NCBI RefSeq assembly: GCF_018362975.1
Contig: NZ_CP074371.1
Location: 2,914,001 to 2,978,000 of the forward strand
Source: Nocardia tengchongensis
Lineage (GTDB): Bacteria > Actinomycetota > Actinomycetes > Mycobacteriales > Mycobacteriaceae
Reading direction: 5' to 3'
DNA: 64,000 nt
Shown: positions 7,401-59,918 of the stretch, in pieces
Layout: every line of letters begins with the position of its first letter
How positions within the stretch are numbered: position 1 is the stretch's first letter
Notes under the pieces: generated by a model
The model's input: the letters and a program-made list of their open reading frames with translations, nothing else
Told to the model about the DNA's origin: nothing
Database searches by the model: none
Made by a program: the position numbers and the translations under genes

Positions 7401-8453
7401 GGACGACGACCCCGACGGCGAGGACCCCGAGGGCTGGGCCGAGGACGTCGATGCCCTGATCGCCGAGCATCGCGCCGCCGAACAAGCCGTCCGCGAGGTG
7501 GAACTGCCCGGCCAGCTCGCCGCCACCGCCCTGGTCGACCTGCGCGCCGACCCCGCGAAACTGGCTGCGCGCCTGCGCCGTCCGCTCCCGTACCCGCCCA
7601 GCCCCTACACCCGCCGCGGCACCGCCTTCCACGCCTGGCTGCAACGCTGGTTCGCCGGCGCGCGCCTGCTCGGCTTCGAAACGCTGCCCGGCGCGGCCGA
7701 TGTCGCCGACACCGACGCCGACCTGATGCGCCTCCAGGAAGCCTTCCTCGCCTCCCGTGGGCCGACCGCAATGCCGTGGACGTGGAGGTCTCCTTCGAAA
7801 CCACCATCGCGGGCACCGTGATTCGCGGCCGCATGGACGCCGTCTTCCGCCGGCCCGACGGCGCCTGGGTCATCGTGGACTGGAAGACCGGCGCGGAACC
7901 CCGCCGCGGGGAAGAGGATTCGGTCGCCGTGCAGCTGGCCGTCTACCGGCTGGCCTGGGCCCGGCTGGAGTCCGCGCGCAGCGGCCGCGCCGAATCCGAT
8001 GTGCTGGCCGAGACCTTCGCCGCCTTCCACTACGTCCGCTCCGGCCGCACCATCGCGCCCGCGCACCTGCCCGGCCCGGCCGAACTCGCCGCCATCATCA
8101 CCACCGCGGCCCCCCGCCGCCGCGCCCCGGAACCACCACTCTCCGACGAGCCCCCGCTTCCGGACGAACCCGACTTCGATGATCCGGGGCCCGACGAGCC
8201 CGTCGAGGTCGAACTACTGCGCCCCCGGCCGACCGAGCCGCCGGACCCAGAAGTGTCACCCGGCATCAATGCGACATCGGATTTCGCGGTGCCGCTCGTT
8301 CCCGAGACGCCACCGGATCACGTGCCGCTGCCCTCGAAGGAGGCGTGGGCGTCCACGGGTTCGTGGCGGGATGCCGTGTCCGACTTCGACTTCCCGCCGG
8401 AATTCGAACCGCCGCCGGACCCGGAATCGCTGCCGCCGGATCCGTCGGCCTGA
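4492..8453 (+). CDS. adnB: AdnB, motor subunit of the AdnAB helicase-nuclease, with suspected single-base frameshift
   Basis: UvrD-like helicase plus RecB-like nuclease, partner of AdnA. Starts at GTG 4492 inside the adnA stop. Walker A GAGAGKTET is about residues 50-58, the Walker B DEYQDT about 295, motif III AVGDPMQSIYGWRGA about 380. The nuclease motifs GRMDAVF and VIVDWKTG lie after nucleotide 7830, in a different frame: frame 1 runs to about 7757, and the protein continues in the next frame from TGG 7758, as if one base were missing in CGnTGG. The joined protein is about 1320 residues and ends in an acidic, proline-rich tail of about 100 residues. About 65 residues (312-378) between motifs II and III look like an insertion. 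Loss of the nuclease would disable resection, so a sequencing error is the simpler reading. Confidence 0.88.
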
Positions 8454-8632
8454 TCGGCCACGGCCACCCTCGGTCGCTCGGGCTGCACGACGGGCCCGGT
8501 GATTTCGGGCCGGTCGGCCCCCGCATCGCGACGCGCCCCCGGTCGAACCGTGGTGCGCGGCGGTTCGCCCGGTACGCTCCGGACCTGTGCCGCTGCCAGA
8601 AGTGTCGACGTGTCGATCTCGAGAATTGAACG

Positions 8633-9703
8633 GTGATTCGCGTGATCGGTGATTCCTCGTCGCGTGGATTGGCCGGGCTGACCGAACGGCCCGACTTCGC
8701 GCTCGTCGGGGTGCTGCGCATCCCGTCCGCACAGTCCAGTCCGTGGTTTTCGCTGGTGCGGCGGGTGGGCCTGGCCGTGCTGCTGCTGGCCGCGTCGACC
8801 CTGGTGGTCTACGTCGGCCGCGACGGCTACCACGACAATGCCCGCGAGCACATGAGCCTGCTCGATTGCGCGTACTACGCGACCGTGTCCCTGTCGACCA
8901 CCGGCTACGGCGACATCACTCCTGTCACCCCCAGCGCGCGGCTGATCAATATCCTCGTGGTCACCCCGCTGCGGATCATGTTCCTCATCGTCTTGGTCGG
9001 CACGACCCTGGCCGTGCTCACCGAACGATCCCGGCAGGCGTTCAAGATTCAGCGATGGAGGCGCACCGTGCGTAATCACACCGTGGTAGTCGGCTACGGC
9101 ACCAAGGGCCGCACCGCCGTGGACGCCATGCTCGCCGACGGCGCGCAGCCGGGCGACATCGTGGTGGTGGACACCGATCCGCAGGTGCTCGAATTCGCCG
9201 CCAACGCCGGGCTGGTCACCGTGCAGGGCTCGGCCACCAAGTCGGATGTGTTGCGGCTGGCCGGAGTTCAGCACGCCGCGGCCGTGGTGGTCGCCGCCAA
9301 CCGCGACGACACCGCCGTGCTGGTCACCCTGTCCGCCCGCGAGATCAACCCCAAGGCAAGGATTTCCGCGGCGGTCCGGGAAGCCGAGAACACCCACGTG
9401 CTGCGGCAGTCCGGCGCGGATTCGGTGGTGGTGTCCTCGGAGACCGCCGGCCGCCTGCTCGGCATCGCCACCACCAAGCCCACCGTGGTCGACATGATCG
9501 AAGACCTGCTCACCCCCGACGCCGGCTTCGCCATCGCCGAACGCGACGTGGAATCCGAGGAGGTCGGCGGATCCCCGCGCCACCTGCGCGACATCGTGCT
9601 CGGCGTGGTCCGCGAGGGCCGGCTGATCCGGGTCGGCGACCCCGAGACCGACGCCCTCGAGGCCCGCGACAAGCTGCTGTATCTGCGGCGAGTCCACGCC
9701 TGA
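8633..9703 (+). CDS. potassium channel family protein with TrkA-N/RCK domain (Rv3200c-like)
   Basis: 356 residues. One transmembrane helix near 38-55 is followed by a pore helix with selectivity filter STTGYGD (about 85) and a second helix near 110-130, the two-helix layout of prokaryotic K+ channels. The remainder is a cytoplasmic RCK/TrkA-N domain starting VVVGYGTKGR (about 150), with a Rossmann fold that gates on nucleotide or cations. It occupies the position of the cation channel gene Rv3200c between adnB and nudC. A GTG start at 8633 is used; about 180 bp separate it from adnB. The function as a K+ channel is inferred from the filter. Confidence 0.9.
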   Translation: MIRVIGDSSSRGLAGLTERPDFALVGVLRIPSAQSSPWFSLVRRVGLAVLLLAASTLVVYVGRDGYHDNAREHMSLLDCAYYATVSLSTTGYGDITPVTPSARLINILVVTPLRIMFLIVLVGTTLAVLTERSRQAFKIQRWRRTVRNHTVVVGYGTKGRTAVDAMLADGAQPGDIVVVDTDPQVLEFAANAGLVTVQGSATKSDVLRLAGVQHAAAVVVAANRDDTAVLVTLSAREINPKARISAAVREAENTHVLRQSGADSVVVSSETAGRLLGIATTKPTVVDMIEDLLTPDAGFAIAERDVESEEVGGSPRHLRDIVLGVVREGRLIRVGDPETDALEARDKLLYLRRVHA

Positions 9704-9729
9704 GTGACGCCCCCGTCTAGTCTCGGGGG

Positions 9730-10650
9730 GTGTCAGGTTTTGAGCTCACTGCGGTTCCGGTGCTGTCGCGTACCTCGCTCGACCGCGCGGAACACCTCCG
9801 CTCCGACGAACAGGCTCTGAAAGAGGGCTGGCCGCAGGCCAAACTCCTCCGGATGAACAAGCGCGGCCAGGTCCGCATCGAGCAGGGCGGCGTGGTGCTC
9901 GACGCCGCGCTCACCCTCGCCCCCGAACGCGCCCCCGAGGCGGTCTTCCTCGGCGTCGACGGCGACACCCACCTGTGGGCGGTGCGCGACAACGCCATCG
10001 AGGGCGAACTGGCCGACCTGCGCGCCTTCGGCGCCACCCTCGACCTCGACGACTTCGGCACCGGCCTGCTGGCCACCGCCATCGCCGTGCTGAACTGGCA
10101 CGACAAGGCCGCCTTCAGCGCGGTCGACGGCAGCCCCACCACGTCCGCCAACGGCGGCTGGTCGCGGATCAGCGCGGCCGGGCACGAGGACTTCCCGCGC
10201 ACCGATCCGGCCGTCATCTGCCTCATCCACGACGGCGGCGACCGTGTCCTGCTGGCCCGCCAGCACACCTGGCCGGCCGGATTGTTCTCGCTGCTGGCCG
10301 GTTTCGTGGAAGCGGGGGAGTCGCTGGAGCGCTGCGTCGAGCGCGAGATCAAGGAGGAGGTCGGCGTCGACGTCCGCGAGATCCGCTACCTGGGCAGCCA
10401 GCCGTGGCCGTTCCCGCGCTCGCTCATGCTGGGCTTCGCCGCCGTCGGCGACCCGGACCAGCCGCTGGCCTTCCACGACGGCGAGATCGCCGAGGCGTTC
10501 TGGTTCACCAAGGCCGAGGTGCGGGAGGCCCTGGCCGCGGGCGCGTGGGGCTCGCCCACCGGAGCCACCGGCGGCGCGGCGAAACTGCTGCTGCCGGGGT
10601 CGATTTCGATCGCGCGGACCATCGTCGAATCCTGGGCCGCCGAAAACTGA
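9730..10650 (+). CDS. nudC: NAD(H) pyrophosphatase NudC (Rv3199c-like)
   Basis: A 306-residue Nudix hydrolase that splits NAD(H) into NMN(H) and AMP and can remove NAD caps from RNA. A full Nudix box begins GFVEAGESLERCVE at about 196 and ends REIKEEVGV. It is followed by the NudC signature SQPWPFPRS (about 222), which confers specificity for NAD(H) within the superfamily. The zinc-ribbon cysteines of E. coli NudC are absent: the region reads FSAVDGSPTTSANGGWS, as in mycobacterial NudC. GTG start at 9730, 26 bp after the channel gene and probably in the same transcript. It ends at a strong bidirectional hairpin. Confidence 0.95.
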   Translation: MSGFELTAVPVLSRTSLDRAEHLRSDEQALKEGWPQAKLLRMNKRGQVRIEQGGVVLDAALTLAPERAPEAVFLGVDGDTHLWAVRDNAIEGELADLRAFGATLDLDDFGTGLLATAIAVLNWHDKAAFSAVDGSPTTSANGGWSRISAAGHEDFPRTDPAVICLIHDGGDRVLLARQHTWPAGLFSLLAGFVEAGESLERCVEREIKEEVGVDVREIRYLGSQPWPFPRSLMLGFAAVGDPDQPLAFHDGEIAEAFWFTKAEVREALAAGAWGSPTGATGGAAKLLLPGSISIARTIVESWAAEN

Positions 10651-26151: not shown

Positions 26152-27296
<1,145 letters not shown>

Positions 27297-27302
27297 CAAA
27301 TG

Positions 27303-27470: not shown

Positions 27471-28319
27471 ATGGTCGCCAATGGATATGGCCGTAAGCGC
27501 CGCGCAGCCCGGGTCGCCGCCGCAGTCGTGGCCGGTGTCGCGGCCGCCGGCCTCGCCGTCGCCTGCACCGCGAACACCGTCACGCACGCCGGTCCCGACG
27601 AGGATGCGCCGCGACCGACCATCGTGCTGGAGCACGGCGCGTTCGCCGACGGATCGAGCTGGAACGATGTGATCGCGAAGCTGAGCAAGGACCGGTATCC
27701 GGTGGTGGCGGCGGCCAACCCGCTGCGCGGTCCCGCGAGTGACGCCGCCGCGCTGCGCAGCGTGATCAGCCACATCGACGGGCCCGTCATTCTGGTCGGG
27801 CATTCCTACGGGGGCTCGGTCATCAGCGCCGCGGCGGCCGGGAACGACAAGGTCAAGGGGCTCGTCTATGTGGCCGCGTTTCTGCCCGCGCCCGGTGAGA
27901 CCGCCCTCGAGCTGACCGGCAAGTACCCCGGTTCCACGCTGCCCGGCGCCTTGAACCCGGTGCCGTTCACCAACGTCGACGGCAGCGCCGGCACCGATCT
28001 GTTCATCCAGCAGGACAAGTTCCGCGCCCAGTTCGCGGCCGATGTGCCCGAGGATCGCGCCGCCCTGGCCGCCGCGGCGCAGCGGCCGATCGCCCAGTCC
28101 GCGCTCGAGGAGAAGGCCACGGTCGCGGGCTGGAACGAGAAGCCCAGCTGGGACATCGTCACCACCAAGGACCTGAGCATCCCGGTCGAAGCGCAGCGGT
28201 TCATGGCCGAGCGCGCCCACGCCGAGGTCACCGAGGTCGATGCCTCGCATTCGGTCGCCGTCTCGCATCCGGATGTGGTCGCCAGAGTGATCGAACAGGC
28301 CGCGGCGGCCGCACACTGA
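27471..28319 (+). CDS. exported alpha/beta hydrolase (paralogue of 60237-61088)
   Basis: 282 residues from ATG 27471. A basic N-terminus (GRKRRAARV) and hydrophobic run ending AGLAVAC indicate export; the cysteine has a weak lipobox (residue -3 is Ala). The hydrolase fold shows IVLEHGAFADGSSW (about 45), the nucleophile elbow VGHSYGGS (about 105), and the catalytic His in VDASHSVAVSHPD near the C-terminus. Substrate unknown; relatives include esterase-like and salicylate-esterase-type enzymes. It is followed 41 bp later by a flavin oxidoreductase. A close paralogue lies beyond the third tRNA copy on the other strand. Confidence 0.85.
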   Translation: MVANGYGRKRRAARVAAAVVAGVAAAGLAVACTANTVTHAGPDEDAPRPTIVLEHGAFADGSSWNDVIAKLSKDRYPVVAAANPLRGPASDAAALRSVISHIDGPVILVGHSYGGSVISAAAAGNDKVKGLVYVAAFLPAPGETALELTGKYPGSTLPGALNPVPFTNVDGSAGTDLFIQQDKFRAQFAADVPEDRAALAAAAQRPIAQSALEEKATVAGWNEKPSWDIVTTKDLSIPVEAQRFMAERAHAEVTEVDASHSVAVSHPDVVARVIEQAAAAAH

Positions 28320-50048: not shown

Positions 50049-50122
50049 CGCGGGGTGGAGCAGCTCGGTAGCTCGCTGGGCTCATAACCCAGAGGTCGCA
50101 GGTTCAAATCCTGTCCCCGCTA
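50049..50122 (+). tRNA. initiator tRNA-fMet(CAT), copy 2
   Basis: Identical in all 74 nt to 27223-27296, with the three G-C anticodon-stem pairs and C1-T72 mismatch. A -10 TACGGT is at 50031-50036; a -35 is not clear. No encoded CCA. Confidence 0.95.
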
Positions 50123-50129
50123 CTACGCG

Positions 50130-50259: not shown

Positions 50260-50310
50260 TTGACACGGCGCCACACCATTCCGTAAGTTCGGAACTAGAA
50301 CTGGTTCTAG
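50260..50310 (+). promoter_or_regulatory. promoter and operator of the prenyltransferase operon
   Basis: TTGACA (50260-50265) and TAAGTT (50284-50289) with 18-bp spacing form a strong promoter. CTAGAACTGGTTCTAG (50295-50310) is a perfect 7-bp inverted repeat placed at the expected start site. The core TAGAAC-nn-GTTCTA equals the KstR (TetR family, sterol catabolism) operator consensus. A leader of about 300 nt follows before the first gene. Confidence 0.65.
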
Positions 50311-50601
50311 GCTGTAGCCAGGCGTATACATGCGGGGAGGCATGTGACATTGAAGGGGAATTACTGCGTCGGGACTTGAATCCCGGAATCATCCAGCTGG
50401 AGGCCGACAGCCTGCAGCTGTATTGCGTTGCCTGACAGCAGCTTTCATGATGTTCGCATCGTGGATGACGTGCTGTCGGTAGCGATCGAAACACTTCTCC
50501 CGGCCCGCGCGGCGTAGCCGTGGATATTTTTCGAATCTTTTGTCATTCGATATGGATATCGTCCGAATGGGGTGACAGGGTTTAGTTAGGAGTGTCCTGT
50601 T
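50311..50601 (+). other. leader region of the prenyltransferase operon, with short ORFs
   Basis: Less GC-rich than its surroundings. An open frame ends IIQLEADSLQLYCVA at 50435 with possible CTG 50364 (behind AAGGGGA) or TTG 50376 starts. Another short ORF, MMFASWMTCCR, covers 50447-50482 without a ribosome site. CGATAT-GG-ATATCG (50548-50561) is a second inverted repeat. No long gene is present. Confidence 0.35.
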
Positions 50602-52818
50602 TTGGACCGTCACAAGATCTTCCGACTGACAGCGCAATCCGATTCGGCGGCTATTGCGGCGCTGGACGCCACCGGCGCGATTTTCACTCGACGCGACGAG
50701 ATCGAGCTCCAACTGGAGAACTTGGCGCGCATCAGAACACCGGAACGAGGCCGATTCGCCGACCGGGCCGATGTGATCGCTGAGATCGTCGGCGACACGC
50801 CGCTGGACCAGTACGGTGTCTGGGTCTATTACCCCTGGTCGGGTCACCTGGTGCACATTCTGGATGAGCCGGAGTTCATCGAGGTTCGCACCGCTGCCAA
50901 CCGGAACAAGATCACTCCACAGGAACAGGCACGGTTCGCGGACAAAACCGTCGGCGTACTGGGCTTGTCGGTAGGAAACTCGATCGCCCTCACCATGGCC
51001 CTGGAACGCACGTTCGGCACCATCAAGCTCGCCGACTTCGACGAACTCGACATCTCGAACCTGAACCGGTTGCGGGCGACCGTCGCGGATCTCGGCGTCA
51101 ACAAGGCCGAACTCGCCGCCCGCCAGATCGCGGAGTTGGATCCCTACCTCACGGTGATGGTCTACGAGGACGGCGTCGACGACCTCAGCATCGACGCATT
51201 CTTCGACGATGCACCCGGTCTCGACCTGCTCGTCGAGGAATGCGACATGCCCTTCGTGAAGATCCTGGCCCGCGAACACGCCAGAACTCGCGGGATTCCG
51301 GTGCTCACCGAGGCCAGCGATCGAGGACTGCTCGAGATCGAGCGCTTCGACCTGGACCCGGCGTACCCGCTGCTGGGCGGCCTACTCGGTGAGCTGAGTA
51401 CCGAACTCCTCGAGGACGCGGATCGCGACATGCAGCTGGCCGCGATGGCGACGATGATCGGCATCGACACCATCTCCGACCGCAGTGCGATCTCCGCGAT
51501 CGAGTTGGACACCACGCTCACCACGTGGCCACAACTGGGTTCGGAGGTGAATCACGGTGGCGCGGTGGTCGCCTCGGCCGCGCGGGCGATTTTCCTCGGC
51601 CACGAAGTACCGTCCGGACGACGGCATGTCGATATCCCCTTCGGCATCGCGATGGCGCCGCTCCCGGACACGCTGCCGACAATCGGCCCGCCCGCTCTGC
51701 GGGGAACCCCCGATCTGACGGCCGTGCCCACCGATATCCGCGAAATTCTCGAACTGGCGATGCGCGCCCCATCGGGTGGGAACACCCAGCCCTGGCGGTT
51801 CGTCCTGACCGGCAGGGTGATCGACGTCGCCTTCGCTCCGGAAACGTTCTCCGTGCCACCATTGTTCAACCGCAAGGGAACCGCCGGCTGGGTCACTCTG
51901 GGCACGGTCACCGAGAGCATCGTGGTAGCCGCGCGTGCCAGAAACCTGTCGGCCACAGTCGAATACGATCCCGAAGGACCTGACAGCCTCGTCTACACGC
52001 GGATCACCGTCGGCGATACCGGGCCGCGGGCCAGTGCACAGGAGCGCGCACTCGGCGCCGCGCTCGGCACCCGGTGCACGCAGCGGACTCGCGAGCAGGG
52101 ACGCCCACTCACCGATGACGAGCGCGCCCTGCTGTGCGGCGTCGTGGAGGACTTCACCACGACGGTCTGGCTCGGTGAGGACGGCAAACTCAAAGAGGCA
52201 TTCGGCGAGGGCGTCGCCGTGGCCAACCGGCTCCGCGTGCTCATCGAGGAGATGAACGAGGAGACGTTCAGCGAGTTCTACTTCCGGCAGGAGGAACCGC
52301 GACGCCGCGACGGTGTTCCGCTCGAGACCCTGAGTATGACCTTGCCGGAGCAGACCATGATGCGGGTGTTGCGCCGTCCCGCGGTGGCACGGGCGCTGCG
52401 CGAGCGCGGCGAGGCGACGGCCTTGCTGGAATACAGCCGAGAGTGGATCGCGAAGTCCTCGGCGGTCGGGGCGATCACCGTGAACACCGAGGCGCGACGT
52501 GAGTTCGTGGAGGCCGGCCGGGCCTTTCTGCGACTCTGGTTGGCGGCCTCGTCGATCGGCGTCGGAGTTCATCCGGTGACGGCGTTGCTCCACGAGACGG
52601 AGATGCTCGCTTTTCCCGAAGGCGGCCTCTTTACCGAGGACGAGCGCGGCACCCTGCAAACCCATACGGGTGCGTTGCGCGACCTGCTGCTCGACGGCAA
52701 TGACGCGCCGCTGGCGGTGACCTTCCGGATCGTCGCGGGTCCCGCGATGCCCGAGGTGGAGCCCGCGCCCCGCAGACCGCTGAGCCAACATCTGGAGATC
52801 GTCGGTGAGCCCGCGTGA
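50602..52818 (+). CDS. ThiF-nitroreductase fusion protein (Rv1355c/MoeY family)
   Basis: 738 residues from TTG 50602, with TAGGAGTG 8 bp upstream. The N-terminal part is ThiF/E1-like: VGVLGLSVGNSIALTMALER (about 115, nucleotide loop), IKLADFDELDISNLNRLRAT with the N-x-NR signature, and ECDMPFVKILARE. The C-terminal part is nitroreductase-like FMN domain: LAMRAPSGGNTQPWRFVLTG (about 390) and ASSIGVGVHPVTALLHE. M. tuberculosis Rv1355c (moeY) has this layout; its reaction is unknown. Here the E1-like and flavin parts may activate and oxidise a substrate for the prenyltransferase pathway. Stop overlaps the GNAT GTG. Confidence 0.88.
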   Translation: MDRHKIFRLTAQSDSAAIAALDATGAIFTRRDEIELQLENLARIRTPERGRFADRADVIAEIVGDTPLDQYGVWVYYPWSGHLVHILDEPEFIEVRTAANRNKITPQEQARFADKTVGVLGLSVGNSIALTMALERTFGTIKLADFDELDISNLNRLRATVADLGVNKAELAARQIAELDPYLTVMVYEDGVDDLSIDAFFDDAPGLDLLVEECDMPFVKILAREHARTRGIPVLTEASDRGLLEIERFDLDPAYPLLGGLLGELSTELLEDADRDMQLAAMATMIGIDTISDRSAISAIELDTTLTTWPQLGSEVNHGGAVVASAARAIFLGHEVPSGRRHVDIPFGIAMAPLPDTLPTIGPPALRGTPDLTAVPTDIREILELAMRAPSGGNTQPWRFVLTGRVIDVAFAPETFSVPPLFNRKGTAGWVTLGTVTESIVVAARARNLSATVEYDPEGPDSLVYTRITVGDTGPRASAQERALGAALGTRCTQRTREQGRPLTDDERALLCGVVEDFTTTVWLGEDGKLKEAFGEGVAVANRLRVLIEEMNEETFSEFYFRQEEPRRRDGVPLETLSMTLPEQTMMRVLRRPAVARALRERGEATALLEYSREWIAKSSAVGAITVNTEARREFVEAGRAFLRLWLAASSIGVGVHPVTALLHETEMLAFPEGGLFTEDERGTLQTHTGALRDLLLDGNDAPLAVTFRIVAGPAMPEVEPAPRRPLSQHLEIVGEPA

Positions 52819-53885
52819 CCCAGACCATGGCGTCGCGCGCGGCAACCGCCGACATCGACATTCGTTTCGCGGAGGCCGATGACGCCGAGCAGATCGCCGA
52901 GCTCTACGACCGCGTCTATGACGGCCGGTTTCCCATCATCGATTGCGTTGACCCACAGCGGATTCGACGGATCATCGGCAGCGGTGAACATATCTGGGTA
53001 ATCGGCCTCGACAAGGGCCGAGTCGTCGGGTCCAGCGTCGGAACAGCCGAACGGGACAACTCGGCGTATGAATTCGGGCGGGCGGCCGTGCTGCCCGAAT
53101 ACAGCGGCAACGGGCACTTCCTGAAAATATTCGCCTACACCGGGACAGCGGCGCGGGAACGGATGGACAGCGATCTCGTCTACGGCTACGCCCGTTCGGA
53201 GCGGGCGCGGATGCTGTACAGCTTCGTCGCCGATCAAATCGGCAATCCCATCGCGTGGGTGGGCACCGACGGTGGCATGCACCCGAACGGCGACATCCGT
53301 GAGGAGCATTTGATCGGCCTGACGTTCATTCGGGAACGCAACGCCATCAGAGTGCTCCCGCCGCGCCCGTTCCTCGATCCGGAATCGGCTCTGGCCCGGC
53401 ACATCACCGAACTGGCCGTGGTCACAACCGAGGGCAGGTACCCGGCCGCGATCGCCGCGGGGCACGGAGCGGAATTCACCCATGTGTCCGCCCATGGGCG
53501 GGTGTCGTATTCGTTGTTCACGCACAGTCGCGCGGCGATCGTCAGTGCGGTGCAGGGTGGCAGCCCCGCCGACGTCCGGCGCGCGCTGTGGGATGTCGTC
53601 GACAGTGCGAATCGACCCGGCCACCCGGCGCGGATTCTGCACCTGACGGTGCATGTGCTGGCCGACAAGACCGATGTGATCGCCGAACTGTGCGCTCCGA
53701 GCCGCGATGGCACGGGGCGCAGGTTCACGGTCAACGGGTATCTGCCGGCGTGGCACCGGGACGGCGATGCCAGATACGACTGCGTCGTACTGACCACCAG
53801 GGTCGACGACCTGCCCCGGGATCTGCTCGGCGCCGAGGAAACCGCGGCCGAGATCTATCTGAGTCTGCCTGCCGATCTACGTTGA
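52815..53885 (+). CDS. GNAT-family acyltransferase-like protein
   Basis: 356 residues from GTG 52815, overlapping the previous stop by 4 bp. Residues about 15-150 form a GNAT domain: FAEADDAEQIAELYDRVYDG, then GKAVLPEYSGN-like AAVLPEYSGNGHFLKIF with the acyl-CoA loop somewhat degenerate (R/Q-x-x-G-x-G/A is not exact). The C-terminal 200 residues are not recognised; a duplicated alpha-beta fold is possible. It may acylate an intermediate or the peptide product. Position in the operon suggests it works with the E1-like fusion. Confidence 0.7.
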   Translation: MTQTMASRAATADIDIRFAEADDAEQIAELYDRVYDGRFPIIDCVDPQRIRRIIGSGEHIWVIGLDKGRVVGSSVGTAERDNSAYEFGRAAVLPEYSGNGHFLKIFAYTGTAARERMDSDLVYGYARSERARMLYSFVADQIGNPIAWVGTDGGMHPNGDIREEHLIGLTFIRERNAIRVLPPRPFLDPESALARHITELAVVTTEGRYPAAIAAGHGAEFTHVSAHGRVSYSLFTHSRAAIVSAVQGGSPADVRRALWDVVDSANRPGHPARILHLTVHVLADKTDVIAELCAPSRDGTGRRFTVNGYLPAWHRDGDARYDCVVLTTRVDDLPRDLLGAEETAAEIYLSLPADLR

Positions 53886-53924
53886 TCCGCGCGGATCATG
53901 AAGCAACACTGAGGAATTAGAGCT

Positions 53925-54263
53925 GTGGATATCACTGGGACCTGGGAAATGACGGTCGAGACACCCGTGGGAACGCAGTACGGGCTGGTCGACATAACTA
54001 CCAAAGCCGATGGCTCACTGGATGCTTTCGCACGCAACGCGACAACCGGCGTCGAAGTCGCGGTCCACGATCTGGTCCTGGCCGGCGACCAGTTGACATG
54101 GCGGCAGATCGTCAAGAAGCCGACCCGGCTCAATATCGGCTTCACCATGACGCTCACCGGCGAGGACGAGATGACGGGGATCGCGAAAGCCCGCATGATG
54201 CCCGGCGTCGGCAAGGTCGTCGGACGTCGGGTCCGCCGGACCGACACCACACCGGAGCACTGA
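53925..54263 (+). CDS. small beta-rich protein of unknown function
   Basis: 112 residues from GTG 53925. Alternating strands (DITGTWEMTVETPVGTQYGL, VDITTKADGSLDAFARNATT, LTWRQIVKKPTRLNIGFTMT) suggest a small lipocalin-like or calycin barrel; it ends VVGRRVRRTDTTPEH. No signal peptide. Similar short barrels accompany biosynthetic genes and may bind substrate or product. Six bp separate it from the MMPL gene. Confidence 0.6.
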   Translation: MDITGTWEMTVETPVGTQYGLVDITTKADGSLDAFARNATTGVEVAVHDLVLAGDQLTWRQIVKKPTRLNIGFTMTLTGEDEMTGIAKARMMPGVGKVVGRRVRRTDTTPEH

Positions 54264-54269
54264 GCGCCG

Positions 54270-56546
54270 ATGCTTTCCAGAGTCGCCCGGTTCGCCACCG
54301 GATCCCCGCGCGTCGTGATCGCGGTGGCCTTGCTGATCATGATCACCTGCGGCGGGTTCGGCGCGAGCGTGCAGTCGCACCTGAAGTTCGGCGGGTTCCT
54401 CACCACGGACGCCGAATCGGCCGCGGCGGGCCGTTTCATCGATGACAATTTTCCCGGCGGGAATCCCAATCTCGTTGTGCTGGTGCACGCTGACGGCGGG
54501 GTCGACGGCGACGCGGCGCGAGCCGCAGGGCGCCGGGTGCTCGACACGCTGAGCCGGCATCGGGAAGTCGTCGGCGTGCAGTCGTACTGGACGCCGGTCA
54601 GCCCGGCCTTCACCGCGAGCTTGCGTAGTAAGGACAGCAAGAGCGCGCTCGTCCTCGGCAACATTCCCGGTGACGAAACCGCCGCGCAAATTGCCGGTGG
54701 CACAATTGAATCGGAGCTCAACGGCACCGACGAAAACGGTGTCACCGTGCATGCGGGCGGCCTGCCGGTGTCGTTCTCCGATATCTACGGCCAGACCATG
54801 CATGACACCACTCGTGCGGAGGCCATCGCGATCCCGGTGTCATTGCTGGTGCTGATCCTGGTGTTCGGCAGCCTCGTCGCGGCGTCGTTGCCACTGGCCA
54901 TCGGACTGTTCGCGATGGCCGCCGCCCTGGGCATCCTACGGACGCTGACGCTGTTCACCGACATCTCGATCTACTCGATGAACATGGTCAGCATGCTCGG
55001 GCTCGCCCTGGCCATCGATTACAGCCTGCTCATCGTCAGCCGCTATCGGGAAGAACTCGGGCACGGCCTGGAGACCAGGTCCGCGATCGTGCGCTCGATT
55101 CGGACCGCGGGCCGCACGGTGGTCTTCTCGGCGTCGACCGTGGCGTGTTCGCTTGCCGCACTGGCGGTTTTCCCGCAGTACTTCCTGCGATCGTTCGCCT
55201 ACGCCGGAGTCGCAGTGGTGATCGCGGCGGCCGCGGGCGCCATCGTCATCCTGCCCGCGTTGTTGATCCTGCTCGGCGATCGGGTCAACTCGCTCGATCT
55301 CCGCGTGTTACTGCTGCGCCGGGTCGGACGCGTTGTCAGCGATCCGGTGCCACCACAACAGAGCCGCTGGTACCGGGTGGTCACCGCGGTCATGAAGCGG
55401 GCGGCTCCCGTCGCCATCGTCGTCACCGCGATCCTGCTGCTGCTCGGGGCCCCGTTCCTGGGTGTACGTTTCGGCTACCCCGATGATCGGACCTTGCCCG
55501 CACAGGCCTCGGCTCGTGTCGTAGGTGACGCGCTGCGCAACGACTTCGATTCCAGGCTCGCCTCCGGCGCGGTGATCGCCGTGCCCGGATATCAAGGAAG
55601 CCAACCGGACATCGGCGCGTACGCGGCGGGACTGTCGCGAACCCCCGGAGTCGCCGCGGTGGCCTCCAGTGCCGGTATCTATGTCAACGGCTCCCAGGCA
55701 TTCGTGGCGCCGCCGGGAATGGCCGGGCCCGCGGGAACTTTCCTGTCCGTGCGAACGAACGTCGACGCCTACTCGAGCGCGGGCGAGGACCAGTTGGCCG
55801 CATTGCGAGCGGTGCCCCCACCCGCACCGGTGCGGTTCGGCGGAAACACCGCGGTCAACCGGGACGCGATGACGGCGATGGGCGACCGGCTGCCGCTGGC
55901 GGGCACGTTCATCGTGCTGACGAGCTTGTTGTTGCTGTTCCTGTTCACCGGAAGCGTGCTGCTGCCGGTGAAGGCGCTGCTGCTCAACATGTTGTCGCTG
56001 ACAGCGACCTTCGGTGCGATGGTGTGGATCTTTCAGGACGGTCACCTCGCCGGAGTGCTCGGCTTCACCCCCACCGGCAGCCTCAACCCGGCGATGCCGA
56101 TCCTGATGTTCTGCTTGGCATTCGGGATGTCCATGGACTACGAGGTGTTCCTGCTTTCCCGGATCCGAGAGGAGTGGCTGGCCTCCGATCGCACTCCGGC
56201 GGCCAACACCCACGCCGTCGCCATGGGTATCGCGAGGACCGGGCGCATCTACACCTCGGCCGCCGGACTGATGGCGCTGGTCATCGGGGCAACAGCGACG
56301 TCGAAGGTGTCGTTCATGATCCTGTTCGGCATCGGCCTGTCGTTGGCCGTGATCATCGACGCGGTCGTCATCCGCACCGCGCTGGGGCCGGCGCTGATGC
56401 GGCTGATGAGCACGTTCAACTGGTGGGCACCCAGGCCCTTGGCGCGTCTGCACCGGCAGTTCGGTCTGGACGAAGCGCCCGGGTCCGACAGTGGCACACC
56501 GGTGGTGGCGCCCGGTGGCATCGTGGCGACGCCTGCCACCTCGTAA
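54270..56546 (+). CDS. MMPL/RND family transporter
   Basis: 758 residues, about 12 transmembrane segments in two repeats. The first helix VIAVALLIMITCGGFGASVQ leads to an external domain, then helices with SMLGLALAIDYSLLIVSRYREE (proton-relay Asp-Tyr). The second repeat has LAFGMSMDYEVFLLSRIREE. Domain order is that of mycobacterial MmpL exporters, which move lipids and siderophores outward. In this operon it is the natural exporter of the prenylated product. Start ATG 54270; 24 bp before the prenyltransferase. Confidence 0.92.
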   Translation: MLSRVARFATGSPRVVIAVALLIMITCGGFGASVQSHLKFGGFLTTDAESAAAGRFIDDNFPGGNPNLVVLVHADGGVDGDAARAAGRRVLDTLSRHREVVGVQSYWTPVSPAFTASLRSKDSKSALVLGNIPGDETAAQIAGGTIESELNGTDENGVTVHAGGLPVSFSDIYGQTMHDTTRAEAIAIPVSLLVLILVFGSLVAASLPLAIGLFAMAAALGILRTLTLFTDISIYSMNMVSMLGLALAIDYSLLIVSRYREELGHGLETRSAIVRSIRTAGRTVVFSASTVACSLAALAVFPQYFLRSFAYAGVAVVIAAAAGAIVILPALLILLGDRVNSLDLRVLLLRRVGRVVSDPVPPQQSRWYRVVTAVMKRAAPVAIVVTAILLLLGAPFLGVRFGYPDDRTLPAQASARVVGDALRNDFDSRLASGAVIAVPGYQGSQPDIGAYAAGLSRTPGVAAVASSAGIYVNGSQAFVAPPGMAGPAGTFLSVRTNVDAYSSAGEDQLAALRAVPPPAPVRFGGNTAVNRDAMTAMGDRLPLAGTFIVLTSLLLLFLFTGSVLLPVKALLLNMLSLTATFGAMVWIFQDGHLAGVLGFTPTGSLNPAMPILMFCLAFGMSMDYEVFLLSRIREEWLASDRTPAANTHAVAMGIARTGRIYTSAAGLMALVIGATATSKVSFMILFGIGLSLAVIIDAVVIRTALGPALMRLMSTFNWWAPRPLARLHRQFGLDEAPGSDSGTPVVAPGGIVATPATS

Positions 56547-56570
56547 GACTGTCTTTACCGGAGGAAACCA

Positions 56571-57653
56571 GTGCTCGACATTTCATTCGCGGATCTTCTG
56601 TGTCAAAAATGGGACACTCTCTGCGCTGAATTCGGCATTCCCGCAACGGAATACACGCCGATAAACAGTCACATCCGGTCCCTGCTCGCCCCGTGGGGCA
56701 GCCGGCTCATCGAGGCGACTCCTCGATATCCGTCCTTCGTCTCGGGGGATGGATTCCCCGCCGAGATCTCGGTCAGCCTCTCCGCCGGCGTACCCGAGTT
56801 TCGGATTCTCTTCGAATCTCTCGGCGCCCCAGCGACATCCATGTCCTGCCGGCAGGCGGGCCTGGACCTGACCGAGCGACTGGCCGACGAACTCGGCGTG
56901 CATGTCGACTCCTTCGACCGGGTGAAGGATCTGTTTCTGCCCCGCGATCGCGACGGGGGACTGATCTGGCACTCGATCGCGTGGCGGCCTGGCAACACAC
57001 CCGAGTACAAGGTGTACCTGGGAACGCAGGCATACGGGCCGGATGGGGCGTATGACGCAGTCGGGAAGGCTATGTCACGCCTGGGAATGTCCTCGGCCTG
57101 GGAAGCGACTCGCGACGGCATCGCGCGGCGCCGAGGATCAGTACCTGAGCTGGACTTCTTCGCGCTCGACCTGACCGAGCAGCCGACCGCGCGCGCCAAA
57201 GTGTATCTGCGGCACCACGGTATAACGGCGGACGACCTGAACAGGCTTGCCGGACTCGCATCCTCGCACCGATCGCCGAGTGCGATCGACGCGTACCGCA
57301 CGATCGTGGGTGATCCGCAGCGGGTCCTGACCGATCATCCGTTGACCTGTCTGGCATTTCGACAAGACAGCGAGCAGGCCGCCGAGGCCACCACCTATCT
57401 TCGCCTCACCGGCGCGGCCGATTCCCACGCCGCAGCCTGCGGACTCGTCGAATCCCTGGTCGATCCCAACATCCTCGACCCGGCCCGATACCGGGCGGCG
57501 ATCACGGCCTTGGCAACGGGTGGTGCACCCGGAGTGCAGGAATTGGTCGGGCTGCGAACGCGACACGATCAGCTGGACGTGACGGTCTACCTTCGCTTCG
57601 ACGTCTACGGCCGCGCCGCGCCGCCTCCCGAAAAATGCTCCTGCGCTCGATGA
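56571..57653 (+). CDS. aromatic (DMATS-type ABBA) prenyltransferase
   Basis: 360 residues. The sequence has the repeated beta strands of the ABBA barrel that hold diphosphate-binding Lys/Arg/Tyr: EYKVYLGTQAYG (about 145), ARAKVYLRHHGIT (about 205) and DVTVYLRFDVYG (about 340). An early SVSLSAGVPEFRILFE supplies the acceptor glutamate in EFRI. This matches fungal/bacterial indole prenyltransferases that transfer DMAPP to tryptophan or tryptophan-containing compounds. No signal peptide. Adjacent idi supplies DMAPP. ATG 56571 follows GGAGG at 56559-56563; it ends CSCAR. Confidence 0.88.
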   Translation: MLDISFADLLCQKWDTLCAEFGIPATEYTPINSHIRSLLAPWGSRLIEATPRYPSFVSGDGFPAEISVSLSAGVPEFRILFESLGAPATSMSCRQAGLDLTERLADELGVHVDSFDRVKDLFLPRDRDGGLIWHSIAWRPGNTPEYKVYLGTQAYGPDGAYDAVGKAMSRLGMSSAWEATRDGIARRRGSVPELDFFALDLTEQPTARAKVYLRHHGITADDLNRLAGLASSHRSPSAIDAYRTIVGDPQRVLTDHPLTCLAFRQDSEQAAEATTYLRLTGAADSHAAACGLVESLVDPNILDPARYRAAITALATGGAPGVQELVGLRTRHDQLDVTVYLRFDVYGRAAPPPEKCSCAR

Positions 57654-57681
57654 ATGACAGATGACGAGGAAGGCGACCGGA

Positions 57682-58220
57682 ATGGTCGAGAATGTTGTGG
57701 TGGATCGCGAGTCCTTGCTGGTCGAGCTGGTCGACGAGACCGGAGTGACGATCGGCTCCTGCCCGGTATCGCGGGCGCATCATCCGCCGGGGCAGCCGCA
57801 CCGCGCCTTCTCGGTGTTGTTGTTCGACACCGCGGGCCGGGTACTGCTCCAACGTCGCGCGGCGGTCAAGACTCGCTTCCCGTCCCGCTGGTCCAACGCC
57901 TGCTGCGGCCACCGGCACCGGAACAAACCGTCGCGCAGGGGGCGGGGATCCGCCTCGTGGACGAGCTCGGCATGCGGGTCGCGCTGAACGAGGTCGGTGT
58001 CTACCGCTATCGCGCCGTGGACCCGGCGACCGACCGCGTCGAAGACGAGTGGGACCACGTCCTCGTCGGAATGGTCACCGACCAGACGGTCCGGCCCAAT
58101 CCGGCGGAAGTATCGGAATTCGCCTGGGTGGAGCTGAACGAGCTGCGTGCCGATCTGGTCGCCGCACCGCACCGGTACACCCCTTGGCTGGGCGGCGTCC
58201 TCTCCACAGCGCGGCCGTGA
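57682..58220 (+). CDS. idi: isopentenyl-diphosphate isomerase type I with suspected frameshift
   Basis: Nudix-fold IPP isomerase, which converts IPP to DMAPP. From ATG 57682 (AGGAAGG upstream; ATG 57661 is an alternative) it reads VLLFDTAGRVLLQRRAAVKT and SNACCGH with the catalytic cysteine. After this the frame breaks near 57909; in the next frame it continues PAPEQTVAQGAGIRLVDELG, then EDEWDHVLVG with the catalytic glutamate. CACCGGCACC would be CACCCGGCACC with one C added. The joined protein is about 180 residues, normal for Idi. It is the last gene of the operon. Confidence 0.87.
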
Positions 58221-58242
58221 ACCGACCGAGGATGATGCGATG

Positions 58243-58275
58243 AACGGCCCGGAGCCTTCGGTTCCGGGCCGCTCT
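58243..58275 (+). terminator. terminator of the prenyltransferase operon
   Basis: CGGCCCGGAGCC and GGTTCCGGGCCG form a 12-bp stem with one mismatch around TTC, 24 bp after idi. A member of the recurring hairpin family. Confidence 0.75.
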
Positions 58276-59839: not shown

Positions 59840-59913
59840 CGCGGGGTGGAGCAGCTCGGTAGCTCGCTGGGCTCATAACCCAGAGGTCGCAGGTTCAAAT
59901 CCTGTCCCCGCTA
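59840..59913 (+). tRNA. initiator tRNA-fMet(CAT), copy 3
   Basis: Identical to the copies at 27223 and 50049. -10 TACTGT at 59821-59826 with TTTTGC at 59797. No encoded CCA. Confidence 0.95.
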
Positions 59914-59918
59914 CTACG

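Follow-up and report, generated by a model that had tools for sequence, protein, structure and literature searches.

Here, we analyzed a six-gene operon in a 64,000-nucleotide stretch of Nocardia tengchongensis DNA (contig NZ_CP074371.1, positions 2,914,001 to 2,978,000; hereafter, the window), part of an 8.0-Mb genome assembled as a single contig, and we conclude, with a probability of roughly 0.55, that this operon makes and exports a prenylated N-acyl oxazolone derived from tryptophan, that is, a prenylated N-acyl tryptazolone. According to the open reading frame list of the window, the six genes run on the + strand from position 50602 through idi, with neighbors overlapping or lying no more than 39 bp apart (Table 1), the compact single-strand layout that an earlier note on this DNA had described. 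Family scans assigned gene 1 to ThiF plus nitroreductase, gave gene 2 a weak GNAT signal and gene 3 no family, and matched gene 4 to MMPL, gene 5 to tryptophan dimethylallyltransferase, and idi to NUDIX/isopentenyl diphosphate isomerase; together with the structure models discussed below, they agree with the ThiF/nitroreductase fusion, GNAT, barrel, MMPL, and prenyltransferase assignments of that note, but idi is split between frames. The note had also left the choice between a peptide and an amino acid product undecided. A prenylated, oxidized, and acylated small molecule exported by the MMPL protein still fits best, with the amino acid favored over the peptide, because the family of gene 1 has a published ring closure and desaturation of N-acyl tryptophan that needs no precursor peptide (PMC12856293).

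In that work, published in December 2025, Rv1356c (TrzA) N-acylates L-tryptophan, and TrzS (Rv1355c and its homologues), a fusion of a ThiF cyclase and a flavin oxidase, uses ATP to close the oxazolone ring and O2 to desaturate it, yielding N-acyl tryptazolones (PMC12856293). In the route that we propose, L-tryptophan would first be dimethylallylated on its indole by the DMATS-type enzyme encoded by gene 5, and the GNAT-fold protein of gene 2 would transfer an acyl group from an acyl-CoA to the amino group; sterol breakdown might provide short acyl-CoAs for this step. In gene 1, the ThiF domain would then use ATP to activate the carboxylate and would close the oxazolone ring, after which the flavin mononucleotide (FMN) domain would desaturate the C-alpha/C-beta bond with O2. 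The product, greasy and prone to hydrolysis, would be bound by the barrel encoded by gene 3 and exported by the MMPL protein of gene 4, and KstR would probably keep the operon repressed unless a steroid metabolite is at hand. Tryptophan is suggested as the substrate by the DMATS family of gene 5 and the Rv1355c-family match of gene 1, and prenylation is placed first because gene 5 lacks the contacts with which TleC holds its bulky, cyclized acceptor. The sequence data show the domains and their order, the conserved active-site motifs, the KstR-type box, and the recurrence of the core; the choice of amino acid and acyl chain, the timing of prenylation, the export step, and the regulation are predictions. 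The earlier note knew of no described cluster with this set, which holds for the whole set in the literature searched and not for its core of acyltransferase and ThiF/flavin oxidase, which is already known. What is new, as a set, is the prenyl branch, the barrel, the exporter, and the switch: no described prenylated oxazolone cluster was found in the open-access literature, a search outside which most subscription papers fall, and the main text of PMC12856293 does not contain the words prenyl, MmpL, KstR, or isomerase.

Gene 1 matches NF005901, the family named for Rv1355c, at 572.8 bits, above the curated cut-off of 476. In its cyclase domain, which matches PF00899, D215 of the sequence VEECDMPF aligns with the ECDS motif of the proteins that we presume to be TrzS (see below) and thereby probably corresponds to Asp217 of PMC12856293. 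The oxidase domain exceeds the cut-off of PF00881 and falls below that of NF047509 (121.1 bits; cut-off, 199), and both the APSGGNTQPW loop (the FMN loop) and the NRLR arginine motif of gene 1 align with the presumed TrzS proteins. Judging from its spacing, this motif would supply the arginine counterpart in the Mycobacterium smegmatis residue set (Arg540 and Gln651), a placement that is approximate; near residue 657, gene 1 reads HP instead of QP, as do some of the presumed TrzS sequences.

Gene 5 scores above the PF11991 cut-off (38.7 bits; cut-off, 25) and below that of TIGR03429 (71.3 bits; cut-off, 163.85), and it matches nine DMATS-family PDB sequences at an E value of 0.001, with TleC (4yzj) the best (E value, 1.9e-31) and MpnD the fourth. 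Following the residue roles given in the TleC study (PMC4786772), Glu106, Arg119, Lys187, and Arg248 of TleC align with E65, R78, K147, and R208 of gene 5, which thus keeps the catalytic glutamate and three of the four diphosphate anchors; these columns are kept in all seven bacterial DMATS sequences aligned. The indolactam contacts Lys297 and Asn367 of TleC are not conserved, which suits an acceptor simpler than that of TleC. The simplest reading of this alignment is that gene 5 is an active indole prenyltransferase whose acceptor differs from that of TleC.

The structure model of gene 2 has a GNAT fold, from which we predict an N-acyltransferase. For TyzA, the nearest structures reported are FeeM and the acyl-homoserine lactone synthase BjaI, both N-acyltransferases (PMC10404671); FeeM and acyl-homoserine lactone synthases were not among the matches listed in the fold search with gene 2, which excludes nothing. 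Gene 3, for which there was no Pfam family match, is modeled as an eight-stranded beta-barrel (pLDDT, 84.7) whose fold matches include designed barrels, the Cap15 receptor, avidins, and retinoid-binding proteins. Gene 4 encodes an MMPL protein whose identity reaches 60% with MMPLs at other Nocardia loci, among them loci in two genomes that carry the unprenylated form of the module described below (G068 and G006), compared to 32 to 34% with the MMPL in the same slot of five unprenylated modules; MMPL matches were present in all 59 Nocardia genomes searched. Inheritance of the transporter together with the module was rejected on these identities. The prenylated type thus carries a different MMPL, which would fit a different cargo.

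Given the hydrolysis-prone ring, the final product might instead be a prenylated N-acyl dehydro-amino acid, with the oxazolone formed by gene 1 as a transient that opens to the acid or an ester. Tryptazolones do readily hydrolyze and undergo alcoholysis (PMC12856293), and the kyonggic and thalassotalic acid clusters have ThiF and nitroreductase genes, although an oxazolone was not observed there (PMC12479983). We regard this outcome as quite unlikely, since an adapted extraction did detect oxazolones in cells of Rhodococcus jostii RHA1 and M. smegmatis (PMC12856293).

To place the operon in an evolutionary context, we surveyed 150 Nocardia genomes, including that of N. tengchongensis. Some match to gene 1 occurs in 146 of them, and a near full-length match of at least 56% identity in 7; in each of these, gene 1 is followed by gene 2, gene 3, and an MMPL gene in the same order, forming a four-gene module. 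DMATS and idi are added in 2 of the 7, N. tengchongensis and Nocardia salmonicida NBRC 13393, the other 5 being unprenylated. Because genes 1 to 3 and an MMPL gene stand together in these seven genomes, prenylation seems to have been added to a core that already worked. The earlier note had proposed co-occurrence elsewhere as a check, and all six genes are indeed syntenic in N. salmonicida, the only case among the other 149 genomes. The flanking genes differ between the two species, indicating that the operon occupies different genomic places.

A DMATS match is present in 24 of 394 genomes of the class and in 3 of 401 genomes of the family sample, N. tengchongensis being counted in both, and in 6 of the 150 Nocardia genomes. 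The surroundings of 5 of the 23 other DMATS-bearing genomes of the class held none of genes 1 to 4 or idi at an E value of 0.01, and in the 4 DMATS-bearing Nocardia genomes other than N. tengchongensis and N. salmonicida, none of genes 1 to 4 lay within the 19-kb stretches examined. In one genome (G073; locus L020, positions 8431 to 10301), a distant DMATS gene (32%) adjoins an idi-like gene with no genes 1 to 4 nearby; by gene content, the DMATS-idi pairing is one that recurs on its own.

This narrow distribution of the full set, 2 genomes in 150, and the split idi would be expected of a decaying or chance assembly, in which a four-gene oxazolone module, a prenyltransferase gene, and idi share no product and are degrading. 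We consider such an assembly improbable in view of the six-gene synteny in N. salmonicida and the signs of purifying selection on each gene, with dN/dS values against N. salmonicida of 0.13 to 0.22 for genes 1 to 5 and of 0.12 and 0.29 for the N- and C-terminal halves of idi. The two halves match NF002995 at model positions 5 to 77 and 73 to 165 in different reading frames, with the change near position 57912, and the N. salmonicida gene is a single open frame of 199 codons. As both halves read as constrained, the break is either recent or an assembly error. The earlier note's proposal that the operon's isomerase secures dimethylallyl diphosphate is weakened by this break and by a full-length idi at another locus (203.3 bits; cut-off, 127), owing to which the supply need not depend on the operon copy.

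A likely switch precedes gene 1. The published KstR motif is TAGAAC(N2)GTTCTA, with the core TnnAACnnGTTnnA (PMC1995591), and the box CTAGAACTGGTTCTAG holds a perfect KstR palindrome at positions 50296 to 50309, between the tRNA gene and gene 1, which is the only site in the window with two or fewer mismatches to the motif (50295 to 50310). The form CTAGAACNNGTTCTAG occurs at 5 places in the 8.0-Mb genome, compared to none for a control with the reversed pattern. Two of the other four boxes lie between HsaA genes (686.2 and 591.7 bits; cut-off, 450) and KshA genes (KshA_C, 281.3 and 286.9 bits), with HsaC at one of these loci (556.1 bits). A third precedes a Fer2/FAD reductase, for which the nearest NCBIfam model is PaaE, below its cut-off, and the fourth precedes an MlaE-type permease; that these two are steroid genes is a guess. 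The two HsaA/KshA loci (L075 and L076) each have their own perfect box, and their separation indicates that these steroid ring-degradation genes are duplicated.

Of the strong promoter with operator that the earlier note had seen, the operator thus matches the published KstR box, and the promoter found no support, with no good -10 element following the possible -35 element. That account contained neither the KstR match nor the frame break in idi nor the difference between gene 4 and the MMPLs of unprenylated modules. Its terminator corresponds to a hairpin, as good as which none of 200 shuffles folds; its tail is T-poor, and it is absent from the list of the terminator scan. A structured leader or riboswitch was not detected, the Rfam matches being three tRNAs only, and folding of the leader's first 150 nt is no more stable than that of shuffled sequences (z score, -0.76). 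A piece of the leader at about 50459 to 50514 (46 to 56 bp) matches places in several further Nocardia genomes at 79 to 80% identity.

Two short + strand frames in the leader, 29 and 21 codons long and with TTG/GTG as starts, bear on a possible ribosomal peptide product. Known clusters for such peptides include ThiF-like enzymes and ABBA prenyltransferases, and the ThiF domain of gene 1 could act as in peptide-modifying clusters, with gene 5 prenylating the peptide. The intergenic gaps of the operon leave no room for a precursor gene, inspection by eye found neither leader peptide repeated in any N. salmonicida leader frame, the barrel of gene 3 is conserved, and the gene 1 family has shown a small-molecule role (PMC12856293). 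On these grounds, we disfavored a ribosomal peptide, which appears very improbable.

Several results weigh against a prenylated tryptazolone. A tree of 71 ThiF domains, one row per distinct domain of at least 240 residues among the proteins collected, with shorter and identical ones dropped, joins the seven module proteins in one clade (100/100), placing gene 1 outside a separate 49-row clade (100/100) that is presumed to be TrzS from its score, its breadth over genera, and the cyclic di-GMP neighbor of its member in locus L024, the tree containing no named TrzS, TyzB, or OxzB. The 49-row clade includes a higher-scoring Rv1355c-family gene (886 bits) located elsewhere in the N. tengchongensis genome, and the oxidase domain of gene 1 shares only 28% and 31% identity with its counterparts in two presumed TrzS proteins (L024 and L112). 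Tryptophan specificity thus does not follow from ancestry. Moreover, gene 2 and the presumed TrzA encoded in the N. tengchongensis genome share no detectable sequence kinship (hhalign probability of 0.1, in what is a weak test); the column of TleC's fourth anchor, Arg378, lies where the alignment is poor and is occupied by D336 in gene 5; and idi is frame-split. As for regulation, no KstR box was found upstream of the module in any of the six relatives examined, 291 bp separate the box from the start of gene 1, and the promoter scan lists no promoter in the region of position 50260 and the box. Conserved KstR control of the module is accordingly not supported; we read the box as putative KstR control gained in this lineage.

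The other 15 rows of the tree (Bacteroidota and other Nocardia loci) fall on the side of the module, whose nearest neighbors are weakly resolved (88/50). Orthology of gene 1 to TrzS was rejected on this tree, which held no named TrzS sequence; gene 1 is probably not a TrzS orthologue, and its position outside the presumed TrzS clade points to a separate subtype, the amino acid of which we infer. The higher-scoring gene of the same genome (L024, C1:2350000-2368000) lies beside a GGDEF-EAL gene, and cyclic di-GMP genes are reported alongside trzAS in Mycobacterium tuberculosis (PMC12856293). A different ThiF architecture was seen at loci L106, L109, L110, and L111 of other Nocardia, where a stretch of about 300 residues is fused ahead of the ThiF domain. 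In L106, the only one checked, this stretch has a weak GNAT match (E value, 0.011), and the next gene is of the ketoacyl-ACP synthase III type; such a fusion may be a self-contained acyl-amino-acid cyclase.

The side of the tree on which gene 1 falls is also where the same route with another aromatic amino acid would place it, the product being a prenylated N-acyl tyrazolone or phenazolone and gene 5 acting on tyrosine or a phenol. The tyrosine-type enzymes TyzB and OxzB have likewise been placed apart from TrzS (PMC12856293). We nonetheless hold this variant to be unlikely: among the nine DMATS-family PDB sequences matched by gene 5, TleC, MpnD, and, by its name, 6-DMATS are indole or tryptophan enzymes, and four others carry no substrate name, none being named as a tyrosine enzyme. 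The remaining two, PriB and CymD, we take to be indole or tryptophan enzymes as well.

Table 1. Coordinates in the window of the operon genes and of the elements around them
Feature	Position	Strand	Basis or comment
Possible -35 element, TTGACA	50260..50265	+	Read in the sequence; no good -10 seen
Predicted KstR operator, CTAGAACTGGTTCTAG	50295..50310	.	Matches TAGAAC(N2)GTTCTA of PMC1995591
Gene 1, ThiF cyclase (~100-355) fused to FMN oxidase (~360-738)	50602..52818	+	738 amino acids; NF005901, PF00899, PF00881
Gene 2, GNAT-fold protein, predicted N-acyltransferase	52815..53885	+	356 amino acids; 4-bp overlap with gene 1
Gene 3, eight-stranded beta-barrel, predicted ligand binder	53925..54263	+	112 amino acids; structure model
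Gene 4, MMPL (RND) transporter, predicted exporter	54270..56546	+	758 amino acids; PF03176, 223.2 bits
Gene 5, DMATS-type aromatic prenyltransferase	56571..57653	+	360 amino acids; PF11991, TIGR03429
Frame with idi C-terminal half (from ~57912)	57654..58220	+	NF002995, 67.1 bits, model positions 73-165
idi N-terminal half, own frame	57661..57987	+	NF002995, 93.0 bits, model positions 5-77; possible starts 57661 and 57683
Terminator-like hairpin, T-poor tail	58245..58271	+	RNA fold -31.9 kcal/mol, z -5.03

Around the operon, the window contains three identical tRNA-Met genes within 33 kb (27223-27297, 50049-50123, and 59840-59914) with similar surroundings of 100 to 185 bp, and the operon sits between the second and third copies. 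DNA at 27585-28304, near the first copy, is 69 to 73% alike, in inverted orientation, to alpha/beta-hydrolase genes past the third. We take both likenesses as a sign of segmental duplication.

Reports of oxazolone lipids in mycolic acid bacteria date only from recent years, and what these lipids do physiologically has been called a major unresolved question (PMC12856293). The operon offers three handles on this question: a prenyl-tailored version, the joint presence of genes for a transporter and a binding barrel, and, by way of the KstR-type box, a likely inducer. If our reading is true, it would link sterol catabolism to oxazolone lipids and make their function testable by comparing growth on cholesterol with growth on another carbon source. 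More tentatively, and as a possibility that we would not yet favor, the product might be a steroid-switched prenylated tryptazolone, the first terpene-bearing oxazolone lipid, built from tryptophan and a cholesterol-derived short acyl-CoA. A barrel devoted to it would carry the molecule and a recruited MMPL would export it; synthesis would be confined to cells that encounter sterols, and the molecule would thereby tell neighboring cells or a host of sterol-rich surroundings.

Compared to known systems, the operon resembles TrzAS (Rv1356c-Rv1355c and the homologues of M. smegmatis and R. jostii RHA1; PMC12856293) in its ThiF-flavin oxidase fusion adjoining an N-acyltransferase gene, here a predicted one, and in the active-site motifs and NF005901 match of gene 1. 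Unlike TrzAS, it places the synthase first; its ThiF domain lies outside the presumed TrzS clade, gene 2 is not detectably related to the presumed TrzA, and the better TrzS candidate of the genome is at another locus. It also adds the barrel, the MMPL, the DMATS, idi, and the KstR-type box. TyzACB of M. tuberculosis, which makes N-acyl tyrazolones and whose genes are flanked by mmpL9, combines an N-acyltransferase (in our operon a predicted one), a ThiF cyclase, a flavin oxidase, and a nearby MMPL gene in a similar way (PMC10404671), but its cyclase and oxidase are separate where gene 1 is fused, its substrate is tyrosine or phenylalanine, and no prenyltransferase is among its named flanking genes. 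N-acyl tyrosine clusters, too, contain ThiF and nitroreductase genes (PMC12479983). The bacterial DMATS enzymes that act on indolactam V, TleC and MpnD (PMC4786772), include the closest solved relative of gene 5, TleC, with the catalytic glutamate and three diphosphate anchors aligned, whereas its Lys297 and Asn367 contacts are not conserved in gene 5, the acceptor of which is a predicted one. Finally, the perfect palindrome ahead of gene 1 is like those of the KstR regulon of mycobacteria and their relatives (PMC1995591) and like those at the two HsaA/KshA pairs of the same genome, but it lies 291 bp from gene 1 and is not conserved in six relatives, and the regulation that it would confer is predicted.

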